A DNA stretch of 36,858 nucleotides, taken from the IMG/VR virus record IMGVR_UViG_3300032116_000629, positions 1 through 36,858 of that record; one strand, written 5' to 3'. A program made the translations under genes and the position numbers. Of the stretch, positions 12,474 to 36,858 are shown in pieces. Source of the stretch: a virus. Every line of letters starts with the position of its first letter. The stretch's first letter is position 1. Under the pieces are notes generated by a model. That model saw only the letters and a list, made by a program, of their open reading frames with translations, was not told the DNA's origin and did not search any database.

Positions 12474-15400
12474 TCACTCAGGCGGTGCGACGTTGTCCAA
12501 GAAGCGTTCGAGGCTGGCGCGGGACGCGACAGGCGCAGACTTGAGGAGCCTCTCACCAGCAGGGCGGCGGGCTTCCTGAAGCGCCTTCTGGGCGTTGCGC
12601 AGGAAGTTGCGGATGACCCCCGGCCCACCCTTGTTGGCCTCGTTCCAGTCGTTGACCTCGCGCACGATGCGTGCAGCCTGTGCCCTGTCGCCTGTCATCA
12701 TGGCCTTGACCCACGCCAGCTTGTAGGCAGTGCCCACCTCCTTGTAGTCATAGTTCATGCGGTTAGCATACTTGATGAAGTCGTACTGCCGTGCTGCATC
12801 TGCGGGGTAGAAGCCAAGGATGCGAGACGCCACTGTCATTGCACTGACTTCCGGCGAGACGATGTATCCACGGCGGTCCACGATAGCACCATTCTGCATG
12901 TAAGCTACGCTGTCACCAATGGCACGCACCAGTGAGAAGGGCGCTTCGCGGGATACATCAAGCAAGTTTGTGGTAGACGAGAGCGGGGCGCGACCAGCCG
13001 CGTAGACAAATTCACCGATGCTCAGACCCATACCGATCACAGGTCCAGCGATACTCTTGAGTTCCTGCGTGGTGTTGGCACCCTTGAGGAAGATGCCTGT
13101 GCCGGGAATGAAGTCTTCCAGACCGAACTTCGCGCCAACGTCCATACCTGTGTAGTGGTTCATCGGGCCGCGCAGGATGAAGTCGGACCAGCCGGGGAAG
13201 ACTTCTTCAAGCTGACGAACAATAGCCATGCGCACAGCGGGACCCTGTCCAAGATCAAGGCCGAGGCGCTGCGAGAGCGTATCGATGAAGTCTTCAATGT
13301 CATCCACCAGTGGGAAGCCCGCAGCACCAGCCAACACGTAGAGTGCGGTCAACATGCCGAGCTTGCCGCCGCGCGACAGGTTCTTGAACAGTGACAAAGA
13401 TGTCAGGGGGTAAGTCTTGTAGACGAACAGCAGAGACATCCAGCCATCGCGCCACATGGGAGGACGGTTGGTGTTGGAGTACTCGCCCAGCGTCTTATCC
13501 ACCGTATCGACGGCGAACAGGCGTGCCATCTCACTGGCCTTGTCCTCTGCGAACCCGGCTTCCTTCAGGCGGTTGAACTCCAGACGGAATGCGGTGAGGA
13601 ACGTGGCGCGGCGGGTGGCCTGTTCCGAGACGTTGAAGGGAGCCATGTACCAGTCAGAGAACTTGAGGAAGCCCTTGGCCCACGCACCAGTAAACATACC
13701 ACGGGCAGTCTCCAGCAAGGCGTTGGCCTGCGCCGGGATGAGCTTACCTTCGCGGATTTCGCGGGCGATGTTCAGAGCTTCGTAGTAGGTAAGGCCGTAC
13801 TGCTGGATAAGCTCAGCTTCCTTGGCAGTGTTGCCAGCGTCACGCGCGGCCTTGATCTCATTTGCGGCCTTCTCGAATGCCTTGGCATCTTCGATGGGAT
13901 CAGAGAATGGATTAAGTCCACGCCAACCAACCACGTCCTTGAAGGACTTCAGGTACATAGGCATGACCGCCATGCCGAAGCCGCCACCGAAGCCCGTCTG
14001 GCTATCCTTAGACGCGAGGAACGGCAGCACGTTGGTATAGAAAGACATGATGTTCTGCGCGAACTGCGTCATCACACCGCCGAGGAAGCCCACACTGGTG
14101 ATCATCTTTGCCAGTGCAGCGTACCGCTTACCCTCGAACGTGGACTCGTTGATGTTGGGTGCATCGTTGATGGCGTCGAAGTCTTTGACGGTGTCGCTAT
14201 AGAAGCGCATACCAAGACTGGCCTTGGTCGGCTGATTGTTGAACGTCGAGCGGCTACCGTCCCAACCCTTGGCTCCGGGGTTGGTAATGACGTACATATA
14301 GAGTTCCTTGGTGAGCCTGTCCTGCCAGTAATCCTTCTGCTTCTGGTCAGTCGCGGCGTCGAGGCGCTCCTTGGCAGTGATGACTGCTTCCTTATCACCG
14401 AACCACTTCTTGCCTGTCTCAGAGGACTGATCCATGAGATCACGGAGTAGCGGCTGAAAGCGCGTCTTCACGATGAGCGACGAGCGCGTGGTGACGTGGC
14501 GGGCAACAGCGTCGATTGTCCTGCTGGGGTCGTAGCCGGGGGAGTCATCGAACTTCAGCGACTTGCGAAGCGCACTGCCCGGAGCCGTAAGCATGGTGAT
14601 CGCCTTGGCGTGCTTGTCAGGAGCCAGCGGGATACCAAGGACGCGCGACACATAGAGGAAGTTGTCAATATCCAGCGACGGATCGGATGAGACAGTATCC
14701 ACGGCCTGAGATGCACGGGCGAACAGCTTGAAGGTCTGCGTCTTGTACTCGCCGGTCGCGTCGTCCCTGACAAGGCCGCTGTACTCGATATCTTTCATAG
14801 CGTCGTTGTAGAACGCCGCCTGATTTTCAGCATCCGACAGTTTAGGAGCCAAGCTGTAGATCATCTTGCTCTGCACGTCGGGATGAAGCTGAACCGTCCT
14901 GCCGTTGATCTGCGCTTCGACACGGACTTGGAACTTGCCCTCGCGCCACAGCGGGACGTGCGACGAGGCGATGGACCTGCGCACAAACATCTGCGCCCGC
15001 TCGAATGCGGCGTCAGCAAGGACGATCTCCTTGACCTTGTCCTGCACAGTATAAATTACGCTCTGCTCTTCGAGGCCGGTGAACTCCTTGCGGCGGCTAC
15101 GGAACTCCTCAATCTTCTTGATGGCGGCTTCGGACTTCTCGTTACCTTTCGCCAAGGCTTCGGCCCTAGCCTGTTCCTCTTCCTTCGTCAGCTTCTTCGT
15201 CGGCTTCGGGAAATAGAACTCCCGCACGTCCTTCTTCAGGTCGTCGGTGAACTCCTTCTTCACGATAGCCGTGTTGACCGCCTTGAAGAACTGCTCCATG
15301 CGCATTGCCGTCTTGGTCGTGACATCCGGCAGGCCGCGCTCGTCATATTCCATGTCATCCACGAAGAGCTTCTTGGCGTGGTTCACGATGTCCTTGACGA

Positions 15401-18400
15401 ACTTGGCGTCGTCGCCTGTCACTTCCTTGTTGGCGAGTATCCTGTTGATACCCTTGGTGGATACCTTCTCAGACAGGAAGTAATTGTCGAACTGCGCCTT
15501 CAGGCGCTCCACATGGAGGTCGGCAAGGTTCCGCATCGTCTCGACGTAGCGGTCATACTCGTCGTCGGTCAGTTCACGCTTGAGTTCTTCCTTCAGACCC
15601 TTGATCTTTTCAGTGGTTTTCTTGGTCTTGTTACCTTCGACGGCTTCCTCGTAGGTGATCTCCGCGCCGTCTTCGAGTTCCTTCTTGGAGAGTGTGCCGA
15701 TGGCGAGGAGCCTCTTGAGTACATCCTCGTCAACCTTCGTGTCACGCCCGGAACCGTCCAGACGTTCATCACCGAGGATGAGCAGAGGAGCGTTGCGGAG
15801 TTCCTTATCCAGCTTGAACCGGGGGCTGGCAATGCGGCGGCTAATCACCAAGGCATAAGATACCACGAGGCGAGAGTTTCCCGTCAGTGCCAGCAGCTTG
15901 GCGAGACGTTCATTATACGTGTTGTACAATTTCGCCGCGTTCGTGCGCATGGCGTCCTTGAGATGCTCAGCGATGTTTGCCCCATGGTTGCGCAGAGCGT
16001 TGTAAGTACCCAGACGCAGGAACTTGCGCACGAACCTCTCGAACCTGTCGAGGTTATCGATCTTGAGGTCCCTGAGAGTGTTGGTCGCTTCCTCCATGCT
16101 GGCGGGCGGCGTAGGGAGAAGGTCAAGCTGATTGCGCAGTGAATGCTGCGCAGAGTAGACCGAGTCTTGACTGAACCTACCCGTGCCGTTGTTGGTCATC
16201 ACGGTCTGGAGGTTGAGCGCGAAGGTGCTGGGCGTGAACATGGACGAACCATTGCGCACGGTGCTGCGGGCCTGAGACACGAGATAGCGGACGATGTCGT
16301 CCTCGAACTTCACACCCAGCTTGTTCAGTACATCCTTGATGGCATACCAGACACGGGCGAGGATGCTGCTGTCCAGCTTCTCAGCGAACTTCGCCATGTA
16401 CTCTTCGACCGCCTCGCGGCGGGCACCGAGCATGTCAACATCTTCGCTAGTAGTCGGACGAGCTTCTCTCTTTGTATCACCTCCAACTTTCTTCTTAACC
16501 ATGTCCAATGTAGAGCGGAGATGGTCTTCAATCTCGATGTTCCTCTTTTGGTAGGCTTCCTCTACCAGCGAACTGAACTCTTTCAGTAGTGAAGATGCGT
16601 TACCTTCATTGTCTTCAAACCAATTCTGGATAATTAAATCCGCATCGTCTTGGTATTCAAGATCGGTAAGAAGTTTACTGAGTGCTCTGCTGCTACCTTC
16701 AACATCACCGTCTAGTGATCTGGCGTTGTCGAGGATGCTGTCCATCTTGGCGATGGCTTGTTTGTAGTCAGAACCCTTGATCGGAGAGAGTATCTCAAGA
16801 AAGAGGTCACCCACCTTTCCGACACTGTCGGGGTTGTTGATATTACGCAGCTTCTCTTGAACTTCAGAGAATGCGCTAACAAACGTACCCACATCTAGCT
16901 TTGCTGGGATGCGCGGCATCTTGGGAACAGCAACAGCCCCGATAACAGAGCCTGCACCTTTCAGAAAACCGCGCCGAGACATAGGCGCAACCCCGGCAGG
17001 ACGTAAGCCAAGAGCACCATCGACCGACTGACGCACACTGGGGTTATTATCATAGACGTAGTCCATGAGTGCATCGAACTGCTTCGCGGGCAGCAGAGCA
17101 CGCATACCATAGTGACCGATGGCCTCGTGAGCCAGCAGGAACCGCATGTGCTTCTCGGTCGGGATGCGGTCGGTGAAGACCAGCACCGTGTTGTCGAAGG
17201 CGTAGCCCGAAGCCGGGGCAGTGTCGAAATCTCCCTGCGGACGCGCTGCCACTGCACGTTGGTACAGTTCGGGATTGCGGCGCTGGAGGTCAGCTTGGTT
17301 CTTGTAGACGTAGAAGCGCGGAGCCTTGGCAAGACCACTGCGGAACTTGTCCACGATAGCCTTGGCCCGGATCGGGTTCACACCCTTGGCGGGGCGACCG
17401 TTCTCATCCACGGGGTTAGTGACGGCGTCGAACTGGGAGAGGCGATACCGCCCTTCATCGATGTCCTTGAGCGCCTGCTCAACACCGGCCCACCCTTGGG
17501 ATGTCTTGTCCTTGTAAGTTTCAAGATACGCACGCGCAGTCCACTGCGCCTGATCAGAGATACCCTGCCCCTTGGCCCAGAAGATGAGGTTAGTAAAAGC
17601 GTTCCTGTACTCTTCCCTACGTTCGGGCGTATCCTTACCGGCCTTGGCTAGGCCCTTGATCTTATCTGTCTGCTTCCTGACTTGAGCAACGGCGGAATAA
17701 ACCTCCTCCAACTCACTGGCGGGAACCTTATTCTCATCGATGTTTTTCGACCCCTCCATGGCGTCTGCGGCAAGGTCAGCCTTGGCGTCATCCGATAGGT
17801 CCGCGTACTTGGCATCTGCCAGACGGGCAGCTACCATTATCTGTTCCAGCGGGCTGAGTTCGGTGACAATGTACTCTTGCGCCTTGGCGCGTGCAGCGGG
17901 CGAGAGTTTCTCGTCGTTACCCATCCGCACAAGCTGAGCAAATGCAGTCGTGCGCTCATCCGCGTTGGCATTATTGGCTGCTATGATAGCGTCATCGACC
18001 TTCTTCAGGTCCTTCGCAGCTTTCTCAGCGGCCTTCTTCTCAGCCTTCAGTTCAGCGGGGGTTTTTGAGGGGGCGACCGCGACCGCCCCTTGGGCTTTTG
18101 GGGGTCGCGGTTTCCTGCCCGTTGGCTTCTTTTCCTCTAGCTTAGCGGCCCCACCAGCTTCTTCCCGTAGGGTTTCACTCCGGGCGGCAGGCCCTTGTTC
18201 TGCTTGCGCGGGTTCTTGGGCGGCGGTCTGCTGTCTTGCGCGGCCACGATTGCGCGGGCCTGCCGTTCCGCCTGCTCCGGGCTGCTCGGCCTGCTGTTCC
18301 CCAGTCTCCCTGTCTGCTGGTACGTCTGCAAGAGTCCTTGTATCCGCGCCTCCCGGTCCTGATCTGAAGTCATCAATGACCTCCTGCCTGATGGTGAACT

Positions 18401-21179
18401 CTTCACCGCCTGTACCGAATGTGCGTGCGCGATCAGCAACCTTGAGCGTGTTGACCATGGTATCAGCAAACCGCTGTACCTTCTCTTTCTGCTCAAGCGT
18501 AAGCCTCTCGACCTTCAACAGCTTGGTCACCTTCCCCAGCTTCTTGAAGATATGCTTGGCGATGTCGCTCTCATTGAACTGCGTCTTGCCAGCAAGCAAA
18601 AGCTGGTTGAGGAAAGTACGGATACGCTGCGATGCCTTACCGACGTTGGGTGTAAGTTTAGGCGTAACACCAGTCGAAAGCGTTTCGACTTGCGCAGCAG
18701 TACCTGTGGGTATCACATCTTCAGTGCCACGCTGGACAACTGTAACCTTACCAGTCGGCTCGCCCTTCTTACCCTTTGCTTTGCCGCGCTGAAGGCGCTG
18801 CAATGTGGCAGTAGGGGTTTCCGTTCCAGACCTAACGGGTGCGTAGCCAGTCACACCACCAAGCTGTTCCGGGGTGTACGTTGCCTGCATACCAGCACCC
18901 ATAGGGGTCTGGGCAATCGGCTGGCGCTGCGGCCCTGCAACGAACTGCTGCGCCCGCCCACGGGCAAGCTCAGCCTGACGGTTGGCAACAATACGATCCG
19001 TAGCGACGCGGCGGCGGGCTTCGGTCGTGGTGGGAACACCACGCACCACATCAGCAATCGGAAGGGCAGGTGCCGTACCGGGTGCCACACCAGTGGGGAT
19101 AGGCTGCGCAGGCGCAGCCTGACTGCCGAAAAATTGCTGCGCACCCTGCCGCTGTGCGGCCTGCTGCTGTACGCCCTGCTGCGCCTGCGCTGCCTGCTGC
19201 GCCTGTGCCAATGCAGCGGCTTGGAACTGTTCAAACGTACCGAAACCACCCGTCTGAGCGGGGGTCATGGTGGTGCCCATACTCATGGGACCACCCGTCA
19301 CGGGGGGAACCGCAGGCGTGGGAGGAGCCACAGGAGACATCTGCAACGGCGGCGCACCGACAGTCATCGCACCCGGAGTTACAGTCGGAACAGGACCAGC
19401 CTGCCCCATAGCGCCGGGTACGGCACCTTCAGTACCGAAGTATGGGCCGGGGATCGTGCTGGGGATAGCGGGTGTAGGACCAACTTGGAACGTCTGGTCA
19501 GCAGCACCCGTCAGCGGGGCCTGCGTACCAGCAAAAGGCTGAAGACCAACGACAGGGTTGGTCATCTGCTGCACAGCGGCCTGCTCAGCCGCCTGCTCTT
19601 CCATGATACGGGTGTAGGGCTGCGGCGGGGCGAAGACCTTCTTATACTCAGTGTCACCGATCTGCTTCTTCAGATCGATAAGATACTGGGCATAGCCGGG
19701 ATCGTCCTGAGATACCGGCAGCAGGAGATTGGCTTCGGTCTTATTGTCAGCCAGCGAACCAGCGAACGCACCACCGGCACCGCCCATCACGCCACCCATT
19801 AGGGCACCGGCAGCGAAGGCGTTGATGATACGATTGGTCGCTTCAGCGGAGTTCAGGTCGAGGACAGGGTTAGCTGCGATCTGGAGGACTTCCTGCGTGC
19901 CTTCAGTTGCGCCTTCGATACCCATGCCAAGTGCGCCGTATCCGGCGATGCGGCCTGTGCGCCCCTTGGCGACACCCTTGAGGATGTCCATGGACTTGCG
20001 CTGGGTTTTGGCAACGCCGACAACGTCACCCGCGAGTTCACTGAAGAGACGGCCAGCCAGCAGCAGTTCGGGGGCAGTGTCAAGAAGACCGCCAAGCGTA
20101 CCGACCAGCAGAGACACAGGGCGGTTGCCCTCGCCCCCGTCAGCCATGGTTTCGCCGTAGGCAGCACCCGTTTGCTGGAAGATATTTGAAGCAGTAGACG
20201 CTGCGATACCACCACCGATCTGCCGCATACGGCGCTCAATGGCAGGGGCCTGCTTCATCACAGCCTGCGCACCAGCCGTCAGACCCTCGTTCAGCATCTC
20301 GTCAAAGGCACCGGGAGCAAGGCGCGTCTTGGCGGCATTCGCCGCCGCGTTGGTCATGCCAGCCGCAGAGAGCATGAGCTTCTTTTCGGCGGCGTCCAGT
20401 GCTTCGCCCTTCAACTGCTTCTTGGCAGCTTCGAGCAGCGCCTTCTTGACCGCCGCCTTACCGAAGAATCCACCGATGGCACCAAGCACGGCACCAGCGG
20501 GGGCGGCAGGACCCGTAGCAGCACCACCAGCGACAGCACCAACACCGGCAGTGATGGCAGACTCGACCACGTTGGGGCCAAGGCGACCGATGGTCGCGGC
20601 CATCCAGTCAAGGACGCCGTTCTCAGGCGTAGAGCCAATATCGGTGAAGTTGCGACTGTAAACCTGATTGGGCTGGAGGTCTGCTTCCTGATCTGCCAAG
20701 TACTGCCCGGTCTGCTCTGCACCCAGCCACTGAAGCCCGAGACCAGCCATCTGCTGCATCTCGTCCGTACCCATGCTGAAGTTCTTGCCCATCAAGGTCA
20801 GAAGACCGGGGTCACGGATGCTCTGCACATACTGGCTGAAGCTGGTATCGTCCACCACTTGCCAGTTACCTTCAGGCAGCGGGGCTTCCTGCCCAGCGTA
20901 CTTCGACATGACCGCAACGTCTGTGTCGTTGTTGGCGTCAACGACATGACCACCAATGAAGTACTTGTTCTCTTCGGGGCTGTAGGCGACACGGGCAGTA
21001 CGCTGCGTGGGTTCTTCTTCCGGCTGCATAAACTGCTGGTTTTGCGTCCTCAGACCCGCGCGGATACCAGCAGCGTACTGGTCGATATCGCGCGAGGCCC
21101 TGTCGGCAATCGCCTGCGGAGTGTTCTGCCCCAAACCCTGAAGCATGGGGGAAGTTGTTCCGAGGAACCTGTCAGCCAT
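12474..21179 (-). CDS. Giant virion/ejected protein, 2901 aa, polyvalent-type (PLxRFG-like C terminus)
   Basis: Last and largest gene of the virion block. Regions: N-terminal ~490 residues with Gly/Ala hydrophobic stretches (about 205-240 and 460-480) and GATEGTQEVLQ; a Pro/Gln/Ala low-complexity zone (~540-790, e.g. AQAQQAAQAQQG); Lys/Ala/Glu-rich helices (~1060-1230); a metallopeptidase-like motif HEAIGH at 1351-1356; a Tat-signal-like segment starting MSRRGFLKGAGS at 1400; long helical regions to about 2350; and a C-terminal part with YKTYPLTSLSLFKNLSRGG and PLVDDIEDFIDT at 2623, like PLxRFG-type giant phage proteins. In short-tailed phages the last, largest structural gene is usually an internal protein ejected into the cell. 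No N4-type RNA polymerase motifs were found. An AAGGG site precedes ATG 21179. CDS certain; role inferred. Confidence 0.9.
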   Translation of the reverse strand: MADRFLGTTSPMLQGLGQNTPQAIADRASRDIDQYAAGIRAGLRTQNQQFMQPEEEPTQRTARVAYSPEENKYFIGGHVVDANNDTDVAVMSKYAGQEAPLPEGNWQVVDDTSFSQYVQSIRDPGLLTLMGKNFSMGTDEMQQMAGLGLQWLGAEQTGQYLADQEADLQPNQVYSRNFTDIGSTPENGVLDWMAATIGRLGPNVVESAITAGVGAVAGGAATGPAAPAGAVLGAIGGFFGKAAVKKALLEAAKKQLKGEALDAAEKKLMLSAAGMTNAAANAAKTRLAPGAFDEMLNEGLTAGAQAVMKQAPAIERRMRQIGGGIAASTASNIFQQTGAAYGETMADGGEGNRPVSLLVGTLGGLLDTAPELLLAGRLFSELAGDVVGVAKTQRKSMDILKGVAKGRTGRIAGYGALGMGIEGATEGTQEVLQIAANPVLDLNSAEATNRIINAFAAGALMGGVMGGAGGAFAGSLADNKTEANLLLPVSQDDPGYAQYLIDLKKQIGDTEYKKVFAPPQPYTRIMEEQAAEQAAVQQMTNPVVGLQPFAGTQAPLTGAADQTFQVGPTPAIPSTIPGPYFGTEGAVPGAMGQAGPVPTVTPGAMTVGAPPLQMSPVAPPTPAVPPVTGGPMSMGTTMTPAQTGGFGTFEQFQAAALAQAQQAAQAQQGVQQQAAQRQGAQQFFGSQAAPAQPIPTGVAPGTAPALPIADVVRGVPTTTEARRRVATDRIVANRQAELARGRAQQFVAGPQRQPIAQTPMGAGMQATYTPEQLGGVTGYAPVRSGTETPTATLQRLQRGKAKGKKGEPTGKVTVVQRGTEDVIPTGTAAQVETLSTGVTPKLTPNVGKASQRIRTFLNQLLLAGKTQFNESDIAKHIFKKLGKVTKLLKVERLTLEQKEKVQRFADTMVNTLKVADRARTFGTGGEEFTIRQEVIDDFRSGPGGADTRTLADVPADRETGEQQAEQPGAGGTAGPRNRGRARQQTAAQEPAQAEQGPAARSETLREEAGGAAKLEEKKPTGRKPRPPKAQGAVAVAPSKTPAELKAEKKAAEKAAKDLKKVDDAIIAANNANADERTTAFAQLVRMGNDEKLSPAARAKAQEYIVTELSPLEQIMVAARLADAKYADLSDDAKADLAADAMEGSKNIDENKVPASELEEVYSAVAQVRKQTDKIKGLAKAGKDTPERREEYRNAFTNLIFWAKGQGISDQAQWTARAYLETYKDKTSQGWAGVEQALKDIDEGRYRLSQFDAVTNPVDENGRPAKGVNPIRAKAIVDKFRSGLAKAPRFYVYKNQADLQRRNPELYQRAVAARPQGDFDTAPASGYAFDNTVLVFTDRIPTEKHMRFLLAHEAIGHYGMRALLPAKQFDALMDYVYDNNPSVRQSVDGALGLRPAGVAPMSRRGFLKGAGSVIGAVAVPKMPRIPAKLDVGTFVSAFSEVQEKLRNINNPDSVGKVGDLFLEILSPIKGSDYKQAIAKMDSILDNARSLDGDVEGSSRALSKLLTDLEYQDDADLIIQNWFEDNEGNASSLLKEFSSLVEEAYQKRNIEIEDHLRSTLDMVKKKVGGDTKREARPTTSEDVDMLGARREAVEEYMAKFAEKLDSSILARVWYAIKDVLNKLGVKFEDDIVRYLVSQARSTVRNGSSMFTPSTFALNLQTVMTNNGTGRFSQDSVYSAQHSLRNQLDLLPTPPASMEEATNTLRDLKIDNLDRFERFVRKFLRLGTYNALRNHGANIAEHLKDAMRTNAAKLYNTYNERLAKLLALTGNSRLVVSYALVISRRIASPRFKLDKELRNAPLLILGDERLDGSGRDTKVDEDVLKRLLAIGTLSKKELEDGAEITYEEAVEGNKTKKTTEKIKGLKEELKRELTDDEYDRYVETMRNLADLHVERLKAQFDNYFLSEKVSTKGINRILANKEVTGDDAKFVKDIVNHAKKLFVDDMEYDERGLPDVTTKTAMRMEQFFKAVNTAIVKKEFTDDLKKDVREFYFPKPTKKLTKEEEQARAEALAKGNEKSEAAIKKIEEFRSRRKEFTGLEEQSVIYTVQDKVKEIVLADAAFERAQMFVRRSIASSHVPLWREGKFQVRVEAQINGRTVQLHPDVQSKMIYSLAPKLSDAENQAAFYNDAMKDIEYSGLVRDDATGEYKTQTFKLFARASQAVDTVSSDPSLDIDNFLYVSRVLGIPLAPDKHAKAITMLTAPGSALRKSLKFDDSPGYDPSRTIDAVARHVTTRSSLIVKTRFQPLLRDLMDQSSETGKKWFGDKEAVITAKERLDAATDQKQKDYWQDRLTKELYMYVITNPGAKGWDGSRSTFNNQPTKASLGMRFYSDTVKDFDAINDAPNINESTFEGKRYAALAKMITSVGFLGGVMTQFAQNIMSFYTNVLPFLASKDSQTGFGGGFGMAVMPMYLKSFKDVVGWRGLNPFSDPIEDAKAFEKAANEIKAARDAGNTAKEAELIQQYGLTYYEALNIAREIREGKLIPAQANALLETARGMFTGAWAKGFLKFSDWYMAPFNVSEQATRRATFLTAFRLEFNRLKEAGFAEDKASEMARLFAVDTVDKTLGEYSNTNRPPMWRDGWMSLLFVYKTYPLTSLSLFKNLSRGGKLGMLTALYVLAGAAGFPLVDDIEDFIDTLSQRLGLDLGQGPAVRMAIVRQLEEVFPGWSDFILRGPMNHYTGMDVGAKFGLEDFIPGTGIFLKGANTTQELKSIAGPVIGMGLSIGEFVYAAGRAPLSSTTNLLDVSREAPFSLVRAIGDSVAYMQNGAIVDRRGYIVSPEVSAMTVASRILGFYPADAARQYDFIKYANRMNYDYKEVGTAYKLAWVKAMMTGDRAQAARIVREVNDWNEANKGGPGVIRNFLRNAQKALQEARRPAGERLLKSAPVASRASLERFLDNVAPPE

Positions 21180-26254: not shown

Positions 26255-26560
26255 TCAGCTACGAAGCTGTGCGACGAGTATGTTTACCGTATCGCGCAAT
26301 GCTTGTACATCGTTAATGAGGACCTGCAAAGTGGCTGCTATCTGAGCGATGTCAGTGGCAGCAGCCCCGGAAACTGCAACCGGAGTTGCACTCCCAGCCG
26401 GGGCACCCGCAACCGTGACTTGCCCGGATACGATAGCCTTGCTGACACGGGTACTCTGCCCGGTGAGCAGGTTGATATTCTCGTGGATCGCAGCCAGCAG
26501 GCGATACTCGGCCTCGGTGAGGCCAGACTGCGGAACCGGAGGAAGAGCAGCAAAACTCAT
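26255..26560 (-). CDS. Small helical protein, 101 aa, probably structural
   Basis: ATG 26560 overlaps the stop of the 872-aa nozzle-like gene (ATGA). The N-terminal part (LTEAEYRLLAAIHENINLLTGQ) is an amphipathic helix, the middle is Ala/Gly/Val-rich and weakly structured (VTVAGAPAGSATPVAVSG), and the C-terminal part (AQIAATLQVLINDVQALRDTVNILVAQL) is a heptad-like coiled coil suggesting oligomerisation. No known family. Its place in the virion operon suggests a small tail or connector component. Confidence 0.6.
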   Translation of the reverse strand: MSFAALPPVPQSGLTEAEYRLLAAIHENINLLTGQSTRVSKAIVSGQVTVAGAPAGSATPVAVSGAAATDIAQIAATLQVLINDVQALRDTVNILVAQLRS

Positions 26561-29175
26561 ACGTTCACCAATCCTGCTGGGGTCTCACCGAAGTGGATCG
26601 ACCGGATGCGGGCAGAACCTGACACCGACACCTCGAACGTATCGGACTTGTACCCTGTGGGGAGACGGAAGATGTCAGAGTCCGAGATCACCACATCTGC
26701 GATCTGTATCTTGTTGGCCCAGAGCTTGAAGTTCACGAAGTAGGAACCGACCGGTTCGAGGCGGTACTGCATGAACTGGTCGCCATTGAACATCACCGTG
26801 TTGAGCGTGCCGAGCGGATCGACCGTGGTCAGCGTATCCGGGTCAGTGTAGCTGAGCGGGCCGTTGAGAACGCCAAGTTGCGGGACATAGGTCCACAGGG
26901 TCGTGTTGAACGCGACGACTTCGAGGTTGAACGCCGTAATCGCATCGGCTTCTTCCGAAGACGAACTGTAGTCCGCAACGACGCGGGCAGCGCCGATGTT
27001 CATATAGCCCTTGTCAACGAAGACCTTGGACTTCCATTCCAGTGACAGAAGCGGCTGATCGGAAGCATCCCACTCATAGATGATATCAACATCATCGGTG
27101 GTGAAGTAGAACTTGTCGTAGCGCCCGTCGTAATAGGACGCGCTGAACCTGATGGGCGTCGTGACGAACACACCGCCGACCTGATCGTCTCGCTCAAAGA
27201 TGAACGAACCATCGCTGTGCGAACAGAAATACTTGCCGTTATAGAACTCAGCAATCATCGTCGTGGGGTCGTATGCTTCCTTCCACGAGTCGAAGTCGTA
27301 GAGTGCCTTGGTGACGAGAACTGCGCCCGTATCCGGGCCATACATGGCGATGCCGCCCCACGTCGGATACATGACGGAGGTGCCCATATTGGTCACGCCG
27401 CGCTTCGAGGTGCAAGGCAGCGGGATGTCGATGCGGCGCGAACCCATGTTCTCAGGAACAGTACCGTCAACGATATACGGGTATTCCGTGGTCATCACGA
27501 GGATCGAACCCGCGACCGGCGCGACGGCGACGATGGGGTACTCGAACACAAGGCGATAGGCAATCGGCCAAGACCACGGACGCCCCGGCTCCGAGAAGCA
27601 GAGTTCGTTCTCCACGAAGCCGATCAGGATGTTGTTGTGGGCCATGGCGAGGCCCTTCATGTTCGCATCCGGCGCATCGGCATTGACAGTGTCCAGACCG
27701 ATGCTCAGACCGCTGACATCGTAGTCATCCACAAATGTGGTGGACTCATAGTACCGCGAGGTGGAACTGTCGGGTTCCGCGATATCCCAGAACAGCGTGC
27801 CTGCCGATGTGGCGGTCGTCGCCTTGTTCGTACCGGTGCTGGCGTAAGTGAAGGTGTACTTGTCTACGACGGACGCGACGAGGGCGTCGGTCGCATTGAA
27901 GCTCGTGTCGGGTGATCCACCGAAGGCTACGCTCGTGATCTTGATCTTGTCGCCTACGACAAGCATGTGCGGATGTGTGGTCTTGACCGTCGCCACGTTC
28001 GTCGTGCGCGAAGCGGACACCAGTGTGTTGGAGAAGTACACGGTCTTGAGGCGAAGATACGCCGTGCCCGTCGCACCGGTCACCGTGCGATAAAGGCGGA
28101 ACCCACGGACGTTGTTGTTTCCCGAAGGCTTCGCGGTCGGGAGAGTGCCGACAGTGACAACCTGCCCTTCGCGGATGTAGATCGCATCAGACGGTTCGCT
28201 GGGGATCGACTCTTCACCCCACGGGGTCAGCCAAGTGTACACATACTTGCGGCTCTGCGGATTACCCGCGAGATTGATCTTGCCGGTCGAGACAGAGATT
28301 GTCGGCGTCTTGGGACCAATGGACGGGTAGGTGAACGTCGTGCTGTCCACCACCGTGACTTCAGCTTCGTTGGTGTTGAAGTCGTATAGGCCGACGTAGA
28401 CATCGGGCGTGCCGGTAGTTGCACCGTTGTTCGCCGGGTCCTCGAAGGTGAAGGTGTTGGTGCCGGTGTTCGTGATGACATAGGTCCCGGTCTGGACAAG
28501 ACCGTTCTGGTTCGTCACCGCTGCCGTCGTCCACGGCTCAAAGGTCATGTAAAGCTGCGTGCCGGTGTCATAACCATGGCCGTTGAGGGTGACGGTGACC
28601 GTGCTGCCGGTACGTGAATACGTACCGGTGCGATAGGTCAACTTGGCAACGCTGATGTTCGTGCCAGTGATGAGGCCATGCGCTGCCGTCGTGACGATCT
28701 TTGCAGTGTTGTTGCCGTCGCGCTCAATCGTGCTGGTCGTCTTCTCGGAAAACGCCGTGAACGAAGTGGTCGGCTTCACCGAAGGGAGGGGGAGTCCAAG
28801 GTCATACGAAGACGCCGGATACGGCCCGCCACCGCTGATCGCCATCGCGTAGTCGGTAACCTTCGGAGCGCCGTCACCCGTGTAGTAGATGCGCTGCTCG
28901 TTCTCTTCCAGCGTCGTCGGTACGGCGATATCAACGTCAGTCAGCCACGACAGCCACTTGTTGATCGTCGGATCGTTGGGATCGCGCATCGGGTAGATGG
29001 TCTGCGCCGTGCCAGCACGAAACGTGTCACCCACATCTTTCGGATTGCGGTAAGGGATAAGATCGCCAGAGTAGAGCTTGGCATTCACGGCAACCTGCGC
29101 AAACTGCGCACCAAGAAGCTCCGGGGAAATCTTCGGCGCGATACCCAGAAAGTTTGAAATCTTGATGCCAGCCAT
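26557..29175 (-). CDS. Tail nozzle-like / tail tubular protein, 872 aa
   Basis: A large beta-rich protein beginning MAGIKISNFLGIAPKISPEL, then AQVAVNAKLYSGDLIPYRNPK, an N-terminal pattern widely seen in short-tailed phages in proteins that complete the tail tube or stabilise packaged DNA. Features include RIYYTGDGAPKVTDYAMA (about residues 94-111), repeated Ig-like strand segments with T/V/G-rich loops (about 150-460), and a C-terminal half with LPCTSKRGVTN and SRRIDIPLP that could form a propeller. ATG 29175 shares its T/A with the preceding TAA (TAATG). By position after adaptor-like genes and before ejection proteins, it is a nozzle candidate like T7 gp12 or P22 gp10. Family inference moderate. 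Confidence 0.72.
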   Translation of the reverse strand: MAGIKISNFLGIAPKISPELLGAQFAQVAVNAKLYSGDLIPYRNPKDVGDTFRAGTAQTIYPMRDPNDPTINKWLSWLTDVDIAVPTTLEENEQRIYYTGDGAPKVTDYAMAISGGGPYPASSYDLGLPLPSVKPTTSFTAFSEKTTSTIERDGNNTAKIVTTAAHGLITGTNISVAKLTYRTGTYSRTGSTVTVTLNGHGYDTGTQLYMTFEPWTTAAVTNQNGLVQTGTYVITNTGTNTFTFEDPANNGATTGTPDVYVGLYDFNTNEAEVTVVDSTTFTYPSIGPKTPTISVSTGKINLAGNPQSRKYVYTWLTPWGEESIPSEPSDAIYIREGQVVTVGTLPTAKPSGNNNVRGFRLYRTVTGATGTAYLRLKTVYFSNTLVSASRTTNVATVKTTHPHMLVVGDKIKITSVAFGGSPDTSFNATDALVASVVDKYTFTYASTGTNKATTATSAGTLFWDIAEPDSSTSRYYESTTFVDDYDVSGLSIGLDTVNADAPDANMKGLAMAHNNILIGFVENELCFSEPGRPWSWPIAYRLVFEYPIVAVAPVAGSILVMTTEYPYIVDGTVPENMGSRRIDIPLPCTSKRGVTNMGTSVMYPTWGGIAMYGPDTGAVLVTKALYDFDSWKEAYDPTTMIAEFYNGKYFCSHSDGSFIFERDDQVGGVFVTTPIRFSASYYDGRYDKFYFTTDDVDIIYEWDASDQPLLSLEWKSKVFVDKGYMNIGAARVVADYSSSSEEADAITAFNLEVVAFNTTLWTYVPQLGVLNGPLSYTDPDTLTTVDPLGTLNTVMFNGDQFMQYRLEPVGSYFVNFKLWANKIQIADVVISDSDIFRLPTGYKSDTFEVSVSGSARIRSIHFGETPAGLVNV

Positions 29176-30014: not shown

Positions 30015-30262
30015 TTGCGCAGGGCCTCCTCTATCGAACTCAGCTTGTCCATGATGGCACGACTGGTCTCTCGGATTTCCTTGATCTCACGGTCATGCGA
30101 CAGTTTCGCAGACGCAGTCTCAGCTTTCAGGACCGCGATATCCGTGTGGTGTGTCTGCTGTTTCTGGTAAAGCACCCAGACGAACGCAGCCACTGGGGCT
30201 ACGATCCACTGCATGATCACGTTCAGTACTCTCAGAGCTTCGCTGTCCATGAGGGGGATCAC
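30011..30262 (-). CDS. Membrane-anchored coiled-coil protein of the lysis cassette, 83 aa
   Basis: GTG at 30262 overlaps the tail-fibre stop (GTGA) and is preferred; an ATG four codons later is the alternative. Residues about 10-28 form a membrane span (VLNVIMQWIVAPVAAFVWVLY), followed by a charged coiled coil to the end (AVLKAETASAKLSHDREIKEI and IMDKLSSIEEALRK). An N-terminal anchor plus coiled coil directly before an endolysin recalls an i-spanin or antiholin-like protein, but there is no overlapping lipoprotein gene to form a spanin pair. Function uncertain. Confidence 0.65.
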   Translation of the reverse strand: MIPLMDSEALRVLNVIMQWIVAPVAAFVWVLYQKQQTHHTDIAVLKAETASAKLSHDREIKEIRETSRAIMDKLSSIEEALRK

Positions 30263-31338
30263 TCCAACACCTTAGAAATTCTGACGATGGTGTAGACTTC
30301 GGTGCTAAACCCGCAGGCACGACCAAACCCAACTGTTGCTGTTGATGCCGAACCACGATGTCTGATCTCGAACGCCTTACTCGCCGCGATGGTAACAACC
30401 GCACACCCAGAACTCTCATTACCCGCGTAATCACCGCCGTTGTTAGAGAATGCACTTTGCCCTCTGGCAACTACTACGGCGTCCGTGACGTTATAGAGTA
30501 GTGATTGATGCGAGTCCACTTTATAGGCCGGTGCCGACCACTCGATGAAGTAGGTCCCAGCAGGGAGCGTGAAGCGGTTCGAGGAAAGAGAAGCGAGTGA
30601 GTTGAGGTTGCGGACCAGTGTATTCAGTGTCCGCGTCCGGTCTTCGGTGTTGTTGAACGTGCCGCCGTCAGTACCCGAGGTCTTCTGGTCTTGGATGATC
30701 ACATCCGGTGCATAGGACGGCTTGCCCCATGCGACGTTAGCAGCAGCGCCACCTGACACCAAAGCCTGAACGGCAGTGCCCGGAGCCAGAACTACCCAGC
30801 CGCTGGCCCCACGGTATGCGACGTTGCCTTGCGTGGTGCCCAGAAAGTCGAGAAGCTGCGAAGCAGTGATCTCTTCGACATCACCTGAGAGTGCCGACGA
30901 GCGCCCCAGCGCACGGGCTGTGGCGATGTTCTGGATTTTGGCGAAGGTAACGGCGTCGGCGGCAATCTTGGCTGTCTCAACCGCATTACTCGCAAGTTTT
31001 GCCGCCGTGACAGTGCCATCACCGGGCGTGATGCCGTCGCGGATATCTTGGATCAGCGCAGCGGTGATGCGGAGTTCGATGCGAGAGCCAGAGGAGTAAG
31101 CCCGCGCCGTCGTCCCGTCCTGCGCACGCACCACGGTAAGCGTGTCGGTCGAACGGGCAGTGACCTTGACCACTTCCAGATTGTTGGAGGTATCGATCAG
31201 TGTTGCGTAGAAGTAATCACCGCCAGAGATCACGGGGAACCGCGAACCAGTTCCGGCAGCAAGTGAGATCGACGTGGCGACATCCGTGATCGTGGACGCC
31301 AGTGTGCTGTAGGCGTTGTTCTTCACCAAAACGGCCAT
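30259..31338 (-). CDS. Tail fibre-like protein, 359 aa
   Basis: ATG 31338 follows GGAGATCGAC; a TTG four codons earlier is disfavoured. The N terminus (AVLVKNNAYSTLASTITDVATS then GSRFPVISGGDYFYATLID, then VVKVTARSTDTLTVVRAQDGT) is a virion-binding domain common in tail fibres of short-tailed phages. The middle has TVTAAKLASNAVETAKIAAD, a trimeric-stalk repeat typical of fibres. The C terminus (LPAGTYFIEWSAPAYKVDSHQSLLYNV) is a beta-sandwich that probably contacts the host surface or acts as trimer tip. A promoter candidate lies just upstream, so it may be transcribed separately with the lysis genes. Confidence 0.8.
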   Translation of the reverse strand: MAVLVKNNAYSTLASTITDVATSISLAAGTGSRFPVISGGDYFYATLIDTSNNLEVVKVTARSTDTLTVVRAQDGTTARAYSSGSRIELRITAALIQDIRDGITPGDGTVTAAKLASNAVETAKIAADAVTFAKIQNIATARALGRSSALSGDVEEITASQLLDFLGTTQGNVAYRGASGWVVLAPGTAVQALVSGGAAANVAWGKPSYAPDVIIQDQKTSGTDGGTFNNTEDRTRTLNTLVRNLNSLASLSSNRFTLPAGTYFIEWSAPAYKVDSHQSLLYNVTDAVVVARGQSAFSNNGGDYAGNESSGCAVVTIAASKAFEIRHRGSASTATVGFGRACGFSTEVYTIVRISKVLE

Positions 31339-31362: not shown

Positions 31363-31390
31363 GTTATACTAATACGTGCGGACATATCAA
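31363..31390 (-). promoter_or_regulatory. Sigma-70-like promoter candidate before tail fibre and lysis genes
   Basis: On the minus strand, TTGATA (31385-31390) and TATAAC (31363-31368) are separated by 16 nt; each matches five of six consensus positions. The predicted start would lie about 7 nt downstream, giving a leader of about 20 nt with GGAGAT before ATG 31338. It overlaps the last codon of the repeat gene. No such strong pair was seen in the other short gaps that I inspected. No transcription data. Confidence 0.5.
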
Positions 31391-32790
31391 GCGGCTTCCC
31401 TCTCGGCTACCACATCCCAGCAGGTGTCGAACGTAACTCGCGGGTAGGAGACAGAAGCGACGAGCCGGGGGCTTGCAACAGACGCAGCCAGTCGGAGGTT
31501 ACTTACAACCGCTGGTGTGTTATGTACCTCATACGATGCCTTAAGATACGTGTAAGTTGCAGTAGCCCGCAGCTTTACAACTGGCTCAATTGTCACGTCT
31601 GCGACAATTGCCGCAACCGACGCCGTGGCCCTGATAACGCAAGGTGCCTCAAAGAGGCTCTTTACAATCGTAGCCTGTACGGTGTCACCAGCTTGGGTCT
31701 GATCCAGCGTGGCAAACGTCGTGGCTTCGACAGAACTAACCGATACGTTGTTGGCTTGCGTCTGAGATAGTACAGCCTTGACCGCGACGGCGGCTGTCGC
31801 GCTGACGCTGTCGCCAGCTTGGGTCCGCGAAAGCGTACCGGCAACCCTGACCGCCGCCGTGGCGACGACGGTGTTACTTGCCTGCGTCTGGGACAGCGTA
31901 GCAAACGTCGTGGCTTCGATAGAAGCACTGACACTGTCGCCAGCTTGGGTTTGCGAAAGGGTAGCCTTGACCGCGACAGCCGCTGTCGCGCTGCCGCTGT
32001 CACCGGCTTGGGTCTGCGAGAGTGCAGCCTTGACCGCGACAGCCGCCGTCGCGCTGACACTGTCGCCAGCTTGGGTCTGTGAGAGTGTAGCCTTGACCGC
32101 GACAGCCGCTGTCGCGCTGACGCTGTCACCGACTTGGGTCTGTGAGAGATCAGCCTTGACCGCGACAGCCGCCGTCGCGCTGACGCTGTCATTAGCTTGG
32201 GTCTGCGAGAGATCGGCCTTGACCGCGACAGCCGCCGTCGCGCTGACGCTGTCGCCAGCTTGGGTTTGCGAGAGATCGGCCTTGACTGCGACAGCCGCCG
32301 TCGCGCTAACACTGTCACCAGCTTGGGTCTGCGAGAGATCGGCCTTAACAGCAACAGCCGCCGTCGCGCTGACAGTGTTGTCATCTTGGGTCTTATCAAG
32401 GTTGGCGACCGTACCAGTGGATAGCGTGTACTCGGCGCTAACGGTATCACCAGCTTGGGTCTGTGAAAGGGTAGCCTTGACCGCGACAGCCGCTGTCGCG
32501 CTGACACTGTCACCGGCTTGGGTCTGTGAAAGATCGGCCTTGACCGCGACGGCGGCTGTCGCGCTGACACTGTCGCCAGCTTGGGTCTGTGAAAGTGTAG
32601 CCTTGACCGCGACGGCGGCTGTCGCGCTGACACTGTCACCAGCTTGGGTCTGCGAGAGTACAGCCTTGACCGTGACAGCCGCCGTCGCGCTGACACTGTC
32701 ACCAGCCTGCGTGGCAGACACGCTCGCATTAACACCGGCTGAAGGAGCCGCTGCTAAGGGTAGTTTTGCGAGGGCGTCAAAACCAAGCAT
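31387..32790 (-). CDS. Repeat protein, 467 aa, with 17 tandem 21-residue units
   Basis: After a short N terminus (MLGFDALAKLPLAAAPSAG), residues about 20-375 are 17 copies of a unit such as VKADLSQTQAGDSVSATAAV. The core TQAGDSVSA is nearly invariant; units 1, 5, 6, 13, 14, 16 and 17 are diverged, and unit 5 has two extra residues. Alternating polar/hydrophobic residues with regular G-D turns suggest a beta-solenoid or string of beta hairpins, as in fibres or surface-binding proteins. The C-terminal ~95 residues are a different beta-rich domain (VIRATASVAAIVADVTIEPV). Between a fibre-associated gene and the tail fibre, it is probably a virion adhesin or spacer. Function not established. Confidence 0.8.
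   Translation of the reverse strand: MLGFDALAKLPLAAAPSAGVNASVSATQAGDSVSATAAVTVKAVLSQTQAGDSVSATAAVAVKATLSQTQAGDSVSATAAVAVKADLSQTQAGDSVSATAAVAVKATLSQTQAGDTVSAEYTLSTGTVANLDKTQDDNTVSATAAVAVKADLSQTQAGDSVSATAAVAVKADLSQTQAGDSVSATAAVAVKADLSQTQANDSVSATAAVAVKADLSQTQVGDSVSATAAVAVKATLSQTQAGDSVSATAAVAVKAALSQTQAGDSGSATAAVAVKATLSQTQAGDSVSASIEATTFATLSQTQASNTVVATAAVRVAGTLSRTQAGDSVSATAAVAVKAVLSQTQANNVSVSSVEATTFATLDQTQAGDTVQATIVKSLFEAPCVIRATASVAAIVADVTIEPVVKLRATATYTYLKASYEVHNTPAVVSNLRLAASVASPRLVASVSYPRVTFDTCWDVVAEREAA
31666..32733 (-). repeat. 63-bp tandem repeat array inside the repeat-protein gene
   Basis: About 17 units of 63 bp (one of 69 bp) in the same frame, encoding a 21-residue unit. Neighbouring units in the middle of the array are almost identical at the DNA level (recurrent GCGACAGCCGCCGTCGCGCTGAC blocks, shown here only by their core GCGACAGCCGCC), while the end units are diverged. 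Unit length divisible by three keeps frame after recombination, so copy number could vary between isolates. Identical units could also collapse in short-read assembly. Confidence 0.92.
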
Positions 32791-32798
32791 CGTCTAAC

Positions 32799-33281
32799 CT
32801 ACAACAGTGAAGCCGCGACGAAGAACTGATCCTTCTCCTGCTCAGAAAGACCCATCAGGTCCAGCAGTAAGTTGTTGCGATAGTAGTTGATGGCGGCGAA
32901 GTCAATCTCAGCAAAGATACGCTGCTCTGGCGTCCAGTTCCCCTCCCCAACCTGAGCGTCAAAGATCGCCGCGATGGCAGCAGGAACCGTCGCCGTCTTG
33001 GTCATGTCGAGAGCTTCTTGCGCGGAGATGTAGCCCAAGGCGTAAAGTTGAAGTGCAGCCTGCCGACGCGAAATGTAATCCGGTACATCCGGTGGGAGCG
33101 TGGCCGGATCAACCGTGCGGACCACCCAGTCACTACCCTCAAGGCCCTCGAACGGAGTGCCGTACTCGCGCACGACAGGGTGCCACACCACTTTCTTGTG
33201 GGGAATATCTTCGGGTTTCGTATCGTAGCGGCGAATTTCCTTGAACTCACCATCAATCAGAAGTGCAAACTCAGTAATCAT
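32799..33281 (-). CDS. Tail fibre-associated/assembly-type protein, 160 aa
   Basis: ATG 33281 directly follows the TAA of the upstream gene. The N-terminal half (FALLIDGEFKEIRRYDTKPEDI, then VVWHPVVREYGTPFEG) is strand-rich and resembles the small beta domains of tail-fibre-associated proteins. The second half begins YISRRQAALQLYALGYISAQEALDM and ends with LMGLSEQEKDQFFVAASLL. This 'sRRQ...L...G.i...eA' helical module is common in small proteins encoded by phage fibre operons. Possibly a fibre chaperone or minor tail protein; no direct evidence. Confidence 0.65.
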   Translation of the reverse strand: MITEFALLIDGEFKEIRRYDTKPEDIPHKKVVWHPVVREYGTPFEGLEGSDWVVRTVDPATLPPDVPDYISRRQAALQLYALGYISAQEALDMTKTATVPAAIAAIFDAQVGEGNWTPEQRIFAEIDFAAINYYRNNLLLDLMGLSEQEKDQFFVAASLL

Positions 33282-33932
33282 TTATGGCCCCCACGATGCG
33301 GCGGTACAGACGTTGGCATTTGACGAAGAAATAGATCGGGCAGTTTCAGCAGCGACGAGCGCAATGCTCGCACCCGAAGACTGCTGGTTTGTAATCGCCA
33401 CGTCAAAATTCTCAGTCGCCCCCGTCCACGTTGTTGTGCCGGTAAGTTTCTTCACCGATGACCCCACCACCAAACCATTCTCGGGGATGTTGATACTTAC
33501 AGTGGACGGAACAGCACCTGCATCTGTAGCACTAGCAAACGGTATTGGGTTGACCCCGAACAAATTCCAGATAGCGATGTTCACGTCAGCAACGGTATTG
33601 GAAAACGTAATCGACACGGTGGCGGTCGCCGCCGTAACCCCCGTCACGCGATAGAGGTAAGCCCCTTGGAAGTCGCCGCCGCCGTCGAACTTTGACCCGT
33701 TGACGAGGGTTGCCGCTATACCGTCTACTGTGACGGCTGTGATATTCCAGTTGTTGTTACCAATGCGCGTCGTGATACCCAAGACGATGAGTTCGCCATT
33801 GGAGGCCCCGAGGTTGACGTTCGCGAAGTTTCTGGTTCCCGACGCCTGACCCGTAAACGTCTGGTTTCCGACATAGGTGATGCCGGTGAGTCCGTGACGC
33901 CCACACCCTACCAGTTGCGTTGCACGCAGCAT
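33282..33932 (-). CDS. Beta-rich tail protein, 216 aa
   Basis: ATG 33932 follows the upstream TAA by 3 nt. The sequence is almost all beta-strand in character: ITYVGNQTFTGQASGT, GELIVLGITTRI, ITAVTVDGIAATLV, then TATVSITFSNTVADVNIAIWNL and SVKKLTGTTTWTGATENFDV. The pattern of one jelly-roll or Ig-like sandwich with hydrophobic W/L strands is typical of small virion decoration or fibre-tip proteins in such clusters. No catalytic residues. Role inferred only from composition and neighbours. Confidence 0.62.
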   Translation of the reverse strand: MLRATQLVGCGRHGLTGITYVGNQTFTGQASGTRNFANVNLGASNGELIVLGITTRIGNNNWNITAVTVDGIAATLVNGSKFDGGGDFQGAYLYRVTGVTAATATVSITFSNTVADVNIAIWNLFGVNPIPFASATDAGAVPSTVSINIPENGLVVGSSVKKLTGTTTWTGATENFDVAITNQQSSGASIALVAAETARSISSSNANVCTAASWGP

Positions 33933-33935
33933 GGC

Positions 33936-34796
33936 TTAGTCATCCCGCGCTGCATTGGTGGTGTAGTGGATTTTGACGCCGTGCAGACGAGCGTCGATTG
34001 CCATCGTATCGGAGGCGTTGGCAGGGACACGCGCCACTTGGAAGACAACCCACTCCTCCGGTGCCGGGGTTCCAGCGACGGTGATGGCGGCTGTCTCGGG
34101 AGAAATATAGATATCATTCGTCGTGCCACCGGTATCGGTCGCCGTCTGTGCGGTTCCGAACGCGGCGTCTGCGGCATCATCATCGGTAAAACCTATTGCC
34201 TGCAACTGCCACACCACGCCGAAGTTGGTCGTGGTCGCCGCGTGCGACCAGACGAACTGTGCCACGATGGTGCCCTCGTCCCACGACTTCGGCATCTGGA
34301 TGGCAAACTGCGCGAACTCCTGCGTGGTCGTATCGAAGTTCAGCGTGCGAAGCATCACGCGGTTCGTGGTCGTCTCCACTGACCCCAATGCTGGGGGGTT
34401 AGTGGTGCGTGGGACCATTGCGATGGCCGGAACCCAGATCGTCTGCTGACCGTCGATCTCCAGATTACTGCGGGCAACCGATGGGTTGACCGCGTCGAGG
34501 TTCCTGATCGCGGAGGTCGGGGCGGTAATGAATACCGACGCAGAGCCACTGAGGTTGAGCAATGACCCCGTAGAACTTTCCACCAGTGTGCGAGACAGCG
34601 TCGTACCCGACGCCGTGTAGGTGCCAGTGCCGATCTCCCATGCCGTACCGTCTTCGATGGTGTAGTGAACCACCGTGCCATCCGTGACACCCGCAGCCGC
34701 GAACGACTGATAGCCGGTGACCGCAGAACCGAGCGTAATCGTGCCCGTGCCTGCGGTCGCCGTCGTCATTCTGGCGCGGTTGAACACGTCAGTCAT
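33936..34796 (-). CDS. Tail fibre/tail protein with conserved N-terminal phage domain, 286 aa
   Basis: The N terminus, [42 protein letters not shown] and [20 protein letters not shown] (residues about 5-75), is a recurrent fibre N-terminal domain in phages of proteobacteria that joins receptor-binding parts to the virion. The C-terminal ~170 residues are a separate beta-sandwich ([47 protein letters not shown]) with a carbohydrate-binding look, but no family is certain. Ends with [14 protein letters not shown]. Probably a structural tail protein. Confidence 0.7.
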
Positions 34797-35567: not shown

Positions 35568-36236
35568 CTATGCAAGAGGAACCATGCGCACGGTCAGGGG
35601 CGCACGGGTGGCACCAAGATTGGCCTTGGCGCGGCGAAGAGCCGTCTTATACGTGTACTGCTTGGCGTGATAGGACGCCAGATTGTAGTCCGTCCACGAC
35701 TTGTCAGGCAGTGTATGAAGATGCTGAAGCACGCCGTGCGTGATCAACTGCTCACACTCATCGAAGGCGATCTTGTCCATCCCCGTGGCATCAGGCGTCG
35801 GCCTCAATGCCAGAAACATCTTAACGGTATACACCCGCGTACTGTCAGGGACGGGAGCCACCACAAAATGATCGGGGTCGAACTGCCCGACGAAGCGCGG
35901 CGACGACCGCTTATTGGCGTCGGCAGACGGCCAGTCGGGGTACATGCGATGCAGGTCTTCCTGAACTGCCGGGTCCAGCGTGTTGAGGAACTCGACGCCA
36001 GAGTTGAGCGCCGCGTGGATCACAGCGACCACCTCGCTGCCGGTGGGGATGTCGTAGTCGTATTCGTAGACACCGGAGGTGAGCGTGATCGGGTCCTGCT
36101 CGTACCGCCACACCAGTGTCTTCTCGCAGACTTCGATGGCGATATCGCGCACGAACTGTTCGATGGTCGGGCGCGGGCACCCCGGCACGTTGGCAGCAAT
36201 CTTGTTTTCGAGCGAGACGAAGGTGCGGGTCGCCAT
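35568..36236 (-). CDS. Head-tail adaptor-like protein, 222 aa
   Basis: ATG 36236 shares one base with the preceding TGA (TGATG). N-terminal helices (IEQFVRDIAIEVCEKTLVWRYE), a beta part with LTSGVYEYDYDIPTGSEVVAVIHAAL (residues about 51-76), FVVAPVPDSTRVYTVKMFLAL, and a C-terminal helical pair (FDECEQLITHGVLQHLHTLPDK, then NLASYHAKQYTYKTALRRAKAN). This helix-beta-helix layout matches phage adaptor/head-completion proteins that sit between portal and tail nozzle, comparable in role to T7 gp11. Order relative to the nozzle-like gene fits. Identity not certain. Confidence 0.68.
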   Translation of the reverse strand: MATRTFVSLENKIAANVPGCPRPTIEQFVRDIAIEVCEKTLVWRYEQDPITLTSGVYEYDYDIPTGSEVVAVIHAALNSGVEFLNTLDPAVQEDLHRMYPDWPSADANKRSSPRFVGQFDPDHFVVAPVPDSTRVYTVKMFLALRPTPDATGMDKIAFDECEQLITHGVLQHLHTLPDKSWTDYNLASYHAKQYTYKTALRRAKANLGATRAPLTVRMVPLA

Positions 36237-36858
36237 CAGGGAAGCTCCCTCTTGTCCATACCGGCGCTGTCGAGATCGGTGAACAGGCGGGTCTTGTAGT
36301 TGGCTTCGAGGCTGGCAGCGAAGTTGTCGAAGAACATCTTCGCGCGGCCCGAGGTGATGTGTTCGTTATCGACGCTCTCGGCCAAGAACACCGTGCCGTC
36401 GATCACGGTGGTGAAGTAGGCATCTGGCAGCAGGGCAACCGTGTCACCAGAGGCGTAATCAGGCGGGGCCTTGGCGTACTCGCCAATCAGCACATGCGCG
36501 GCAGGAGCCTTGGGGTAGATGAAGAACTTGTTGGGGTTGCGCGGGTGGCGCATCCAGTTGACCGTGGCACCAGCGGTGGCATCCACCCAGCCGGGGTAGG
36601 TCTGATCGATGGTCTGTCGGTTCGTCTCACGCACTGCGGAGCCGTTCTTGACCCGGAAGATTTCCATGAGGCGGATGGAGTCGGACGGGGCAGACTGCAC
36701 CACCTCGCCCGCCGTGCATGAAATTTCTCCGACGTAAGCAAAGAGGTCGGGACGGACAAGCGCAATGCGCTTCAGGGTCTGGTTCGCAAACCCCAAGAGC
36801 GTAGCGTCCGAGAAACGCTGAAGGGACACGTCAGCATTCGTGTCCTGCAACAGCTTCC
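36236..36858 (-). CDS. Adaptor-like protein (DUF6682-type), 5' end cut by window
   Basis: The reading frame stays open to the right edge; its in-window residues begin KLLQDTNADVSLQRFSD, and an internal TTG at 36850 is unlikely to be the start because the LLQD segment belongs to the usual N-terminal helix. Seen: LLGFANQTLKRIALVRPDLF (the 'll..iN.aq..i...RPd' helix), APSDSIRLMEIFRVKNG, VNWMRHPRNPNKFFIYPKAP, a parallel to adaptor-fold beta parts, LLPDAYFTTVIDGTVFLAES and a C-terminal helix with AASLEANYKTRLF. It is probably a head-to-tail connector protein. Portal, capsid and terminase genes would be expected to the right of the window. Confidence 0.75.
   Translation of the reverse strand, partial: KLLQDTNADVSLQRFSDATLLGFANQTLKRIALVRPDLFAYVGEISCTAGEVVQSAPSDSIRLMEIFRVKNGSAVRETNRQTIDQTYPGWVDATAGATVNWMRHPRNPNKFFIYPKAPAAHVLIGEYAKAPPDYASGDTVALLPDAYFTTVIDGTVFLAESVDNEHITSGRAKMFFDNFAASLEANYKTRLFTDLDSAGMDKRELP

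Follow-up and report, generated by a model that had tools for sequence, protein, structure and literature searches.

A tandem-repeat protein of apparently modular build beside the tail-fibre gene of a putative Bcep22-like podovirus, with array length fixed in near-identical phages and differing between lineages

The stretch of DNA analysed here (the window) is a metagenomic viral record of 36,858 bases. An open reading frame on its minus strand (31387–32790, ATG start) encodes a 467-aa protein that begins with MLGFDALAKLPLAA, continues through 17 tandem units and closes with a C-terminal domain; it starts 8 nt past the stop of the upstream gene. The array, detected by TRF with a period of 63 and a score of 898, occupies positions 31636–32712 of the minus strand in our unit table and has the consensus TQAGDSVSATAAVAVKADLSQ. 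The initial annotation had described a 17-copy array in a single open frame, which is what is present; its coordinates (31666–32733) were nearly right, and its 63-bp unit holds for 16 of the 17 units (21 aa each) but not for unit 5 (32392–32460, minus strand), which has 23 aa (69 bp). Eleven stretches at least 75% like unit 2 were found in the window, compared to none in three mononucleotide shuffles (16.9-kb part). A 339-aa open frame runs antisense to the array (31778–32797, plus strand); it shows no sign of being a gene, and is probably a by-product of unit lengths being multiples of three.

Directly downstream lies the main tail fibre gene (30259–31338, minus strand) with PHROG tail-fibre hits and an N-terminus (MAVLVKNNAYSTLAS...) that by eye is like those of BcepMigl gp25/gp24/gp23, and the repeat gene thus sits in a tail-fibre cluster, as originally proposed. 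The remaining neighbours are also on the minus strand. Directly upstream is a 160-aa gene (32799–33281) with a weak match to a PHROG of unknown function. A 286-aa protein (33936–34796) without a PHROG hit has a fibre-type N-terminus, common to genes adjoining tag proteins (see below) in other phages and in Bradyrhizobium prophages, both judged by eye. Two adjacent structural genes (35568–36850) match phrog_437 and phrog_399 and, by an inferred mapping, are probably the dual tubeA pair of Bcep22-like phages, for which paired tubeA genes have been described (PMC10386132). On the other side, at 26557–29175, is a homologue of the Lessievirus 'internal virion'/'head closure' protein (phrog_511, 2.6e-111), with matches in 161 phage records. 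A 2901-aa ORF (12474–21179), which has no Pfam hit at E 0.001, occupies the position at which Lessievirus has its very large virion protein (DarB-like).

The structural order of Bcep22-like phages therefore recurs in the window (paired tubeA-type genes, a 135-aa head protein type, fibre cluster, phrog_511-type protein and very large virion protein), and synteny places its phage as a Bcep22-like podovirus with a Lessievirus-type module; identities are below 35% among the matches listed, and we do not claim membership of the genus. BcepMigl and JC1 (Lessievirus) share the structural gene order, the fibre N-terminus and the phrog_511-type protein, but the genes in their slot differ, and a tblastn search of the phages collection with the 467-aa protein (low-complexity filter on, E 1e-5) yielded no TQ-repeat protein. 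Mass spectrometry of JC1 virions detected the fibre gp56 together with gp55, a 92-aa protein encoded immediately upstream of the fibre; the non-homologous gp54, which occupies a nearby slot, is not among the detected virion proteins in Table 6 of that report (PMC9144972).

The units were initially described as diverged at both ends and homogenised in the middle. Divergence is confined to the C-terminal side (units 13, 14, 16 and 17, with mean identities to the other units of 61, 59, 41 and 46%) and unit 5; the N-terminal units are canonical, unit 1 (76%) being on par with the middle units, and unit 15 is canonical again between the divergent units 14 and 16. Homogeneity is found at the protein level but not in the DNA: among the 12 canonical units (66 pairs) the mean difference is 39% at synonymous sites (pS 0.39) versus 6% at nonsynonymous sites (pN 0.06), and residue 18 (V/T/D/A) is the only freely varying one among the 21 positions tabulated. 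These values, together with a longest exact repeat of just 39 nt inside the ORF, indicate that the array is old and has been preserved as protein, the units being maintained by selection at the protein level rather than by recent homogenisation. Since no two units are identical and no longer exact repeat exists, there is no trace of recent duplication, and an array of this age and repeat length can be resolved by short reads.

A scan of viral contigs gave 15 confirmed loci. The ORF of 1404 bp is identical in L003–L008, which are separate IMG/VR records and comprise all six of the other records with a complete near-identical array, although their main aligned blocks (5.8–11.5 kb) differ from the window at 2–11 bases. 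Rapid tuning of copy number is therefore not seen, and these near-identical genomes hold no copy-number variants. This bears directly on the idea, raised at first, of a length-tunable adhesin whose copy number flickers within a population through unequal recombination, altering reach or host binding. In-frame units and differing lengths between related phages (below) would suit such a protein, but the six identical arrays and the missing trace of recent duplication do not, and we regard it as unlikely.

The record L009 is relevant to both sides of this question. It differs from the window at 2 positions in 4068 bp upstream and then, within the gene, at 123 positions in a gap-free 869 bp; 48 of the codon changes are synonymous and 37 nonsynonymous (dN/dS ~0.31 over 867 nt). 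Most of its 12 full units are closer to other L009 units (90–97%) than to their positional counterparts in the window (68–94%), the exceptions being units 1 and 5 (100% and 96% to the counterpart), unit 3, whose best match is unit 2 of the window, and unit 8, which is tied. This looks like exchange within the array and speaks for a tunable adhesin, but the alignment with the window stays gap-free through all 12 units despite the divergence. The contig is possibly chimeric: we did not accept it as proof of allele replacement, as it ends inside the array and may have been assembled across 170 identical first nucleotides. A 33-base piece of its array was found in no other viral contig. Copy number appears to be stable over short times and to change between lineages rather than to flicker within one, since near-identical phages all carry 17 units.

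More distant relatives were sought with a neighbouring structural gene, giving 21 loci, of which ten lie in records that had been counted before, four (L054–L057) end before the slot and one (L066) matches only remotely and lacks the slot. The gene occurs in forms of 467 aa (17 unit anchors), 361 aa (12 anchors; L010 and L011), 162 aa (4 anchors; L040–L042) and 111 aa (2 anchors; L053, without the N-terminal tag but with homology confirmed at 1.6e-12 and 5.6e-10). The slot is empty in L062 and L063, where the fibre gene comes within 10 nt after the phrog_437-type gene; no repeat homologue was found elsewhere in these records, which are fragments. Copy number is thus fixed at short range but not at long range, and the expectation that whole-unit changes would alter protein length among related phages without disturbing the frame is borne out. 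Because relatives carry 17, 12, 4 or 2 units or no gene at all, arm length may matter little to viability. Another record, L048 (2965–4133, compared with window 33282–34796), encodes an identical phrog_437-type protein but different downstream fibre-cluster genes, and ends before the slot; a fibre cassette appears to have been exchanged between otherwise near-identical phages.

Comparison of these forms shows a modular protein, in which a 13-residue N-terminal tag and a conserved C-terminal domain enclose a body that can be swapped. The tag (MLGFDALAKLPLA, codons 1–13, 32752–32790, minus strand) is conserved as a peptide with differing codons in other lineages. The C-terminal domain (EAPCVIR...TCWDVVAEREAA, 31387–31647, minus strand) holds the only two cysteines, C384 and C457, and this pair is kept in all TQ forms compared (467, 361, 162 and 111 aa). 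L040 and L015 show 79% similarity across 827 nt up to nucleotide 40 of the tag gene, past which their bodies differ (TQ units in one and VTGVSAT units in the other). For L040 and L011 the similarity is 89%, beginning within the C-terminal part and continuing from there. Exchange thus takes place at two points, one at the tag and one within the C-terminal part, and what changes is the intervening body. The 111-aa form in L053 lacks the tag, which therefore cannot be the sole anchor. Among the structural genes of L015 there is also an ORF (274–909) that by eye is like a GIY-YIG homing endonuclease.

These features bear on two further explanations. Absence of the gene from the slot in some relatives could be taken to mean that the array is a functionless expansion, but this is highly improbable given the strong protein-level constraint on the units, the dN/dS of ~0.3 in L009 and the retention of the tag and cysteine pair. 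An improbable alternative of somewhat greater weight is a fibre-assembly helper absent from the finished virion, for which the fixed position adjoining the fibre gene can be cited, as can the fact that we know of no virion detection of any relative. However, L062 and L063 have a fibre without the repeat protein, and repeat bodies so variable in length are unusual for a chaperone.

The AlphaFold2 model of the 467-aa protein is a low-confidence beta-solenoid (mean pLDDT 53, repeats mostly ~55–75) with two strands per unit, for which VIA returned Z scores of up to 17.2 against beta-helix proteins and 16 against the Sf6 and P22 tailspikes; Foldseek returned nothing for it at E ≤ 0.001. The 4-unit homologue of 162 aa was modelled with a different fold and one long strand per unit (pLDDT 45). 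The beta-solenoid that the initial annotation had proposed to look for was thus predicted for the long form at low confidence but not for the short one. Because AF2 tends to give solenoids for repeat sequences, over-predicting them according to one report (PMC11795689), we do not use this result as evidence of fold and limit ourselves to the view that the unit is probably beta-rich.

Database searches identified no fibre PHROG for the repeat protein. Its sole PHROG match, phrog_38872 (unknown function), is weak and concerns the repeat body (E 4.7e-8, best stretch only residues 17–187). A PDB sequence search gave nothing up to E 1, and Pfam, including BACON and Ig-like arrays, nothing above curated cut-off. 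Matches to NCBIfam and Pfam models (Csx16, CusF, Big_6 and others) did not reach the curated cut-offs and were dismissed as compositional, among them Big_6 against the L040 form at E 0.0088. A genome scan with one alignment matched 57 stretches, none of which was confirmed. Distant repeat proteins of Curvibacter phage P26059A (gp7) and Salinibacter phage B2_17_32 share the 21-residue period and match the 361-aa form (E 2e-19 for the first, 4e-7 for the second), but have no MLGF tag, have different ends, belong to other phage types and are annotated only as hypothetical. BACON arrays, as described in the published account, are likewise tandem-repeat proteins of the phage tail region that undergo internal duplication and horizontal exchange with order conserved within a lineage; BACON, however, is a curated domain, whereas the window unit has 21 residues, lacks a Pfam model above cut-off and occurs in another type of podovirus. 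Neither the strings MLGFDAL, TQAGDSVSA, TQADDTLSA and phrog_38872 nor a description of such a tag/repeat protein was found in the literature searched.

The tag itself is more widespread than the TQ array. An exact scan found it in 17 viral stretches with three body types, and in other phages it also heads bodies of different sequence with a ~20–22-residue period. A related tag, MLGFDALGRLALGQ, heads two Bradyrhizobium proteins (prophages), and MLGFDAL stands at the head of 17 of the 21 viral proteins found with one Bradyrhizobium tag protein (counted by eye). In an autocorrelation analysis of 25 chosen representative proteins (20 with the tag), which are not independent of one another, the top lag exceeded all 200 shuffles in 22, at 20–24 residues or about twice that; in L053, L092 and L094 it did not. 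Nine such proteins compared with Pfam and PHROG gave no hit, either above the Pfam cut-off or, for PHROG, at E 0.001, and no named family covers the tag proteins. Ten stretches were found by a tag scan of genome contigs, two of which are true tag-plus-repeat proteins, both from Bradyrhizobium; the others were discarded, six resembling CheA-type histidine kinases and two being unrelated (by eye). In 397 genomes of one order the tag pattern matched once, the match being the seed itself, and when two soil-type tag proteins were searched against phages by tblastn, one gave no match and the other a single weak one.

By eye, tag proteins of other phages adjoin scaffold-like, tail-adaptor-like or stabilisation-like genes as well as fibres, so a 'tail' location may be too narrow, and the distant match in P26059A sits among head genes. 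The repeat protein could then be a head, neck or assembly protein (decoration, portal-region or scaffold-associated) placed in the fibre cluster by chance. We consider this rather unlikely, as the gene immediately precedes the fibre gene in the four TQ forms for which the downstream gene was examined (window, L011, L040 and L053), and in the L040/L011 comparison its C-terminal end goes together with the fibre side.

Weighing these observations, the reading we favour, with middling confidence, is that the Bcep22-like podovirus carries this protein in its virion as an accessory component, most likely on the tail beside the fibres, with a beta-rich arm or spacer that has been re-lengthened over lineages. 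The short tag and C-terminal domain would be the functional, possibly docking, ends; the 21-residue units would form the arm, possibly with weak multivalent binding as an adhesin, and recombination inside the gene would lengthen, shorten or swap the body over lineages. Repeat proteins encoded among phage fibre genes are of an ordinary kind, but the modular build of this one is unusual and unnamed. More tentatively, MLGFDAL(A/G)(K/R)L may be a docking peptide common to many phages, at least some of them infecting Alphaproteobacteria, which carries interchangeable beta-repeat arms of ~20–22-residue pitch and different C-terminal modules, the arm being exchanged or re-lengthened by recombination at the tag while the rest of the virion is untouched. 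Should the ends prove to dock and the body to be an exchangeable arm, these phages would provide a simple natural system on the importance of surface protein length, with a ready-made series of 0, 2, 4, 12 and 17 units, and the short tag would unite many 'hypothetical' phage and prophage repeat proteins in one functional class. A further set of repeats occurs in another phage type: L045, L046 (5449–7020) and L047 (2186–3757) encode 524-aa frames in which TQDDNT-type units with a 24-residue period sit behind a separate N-terminal part.
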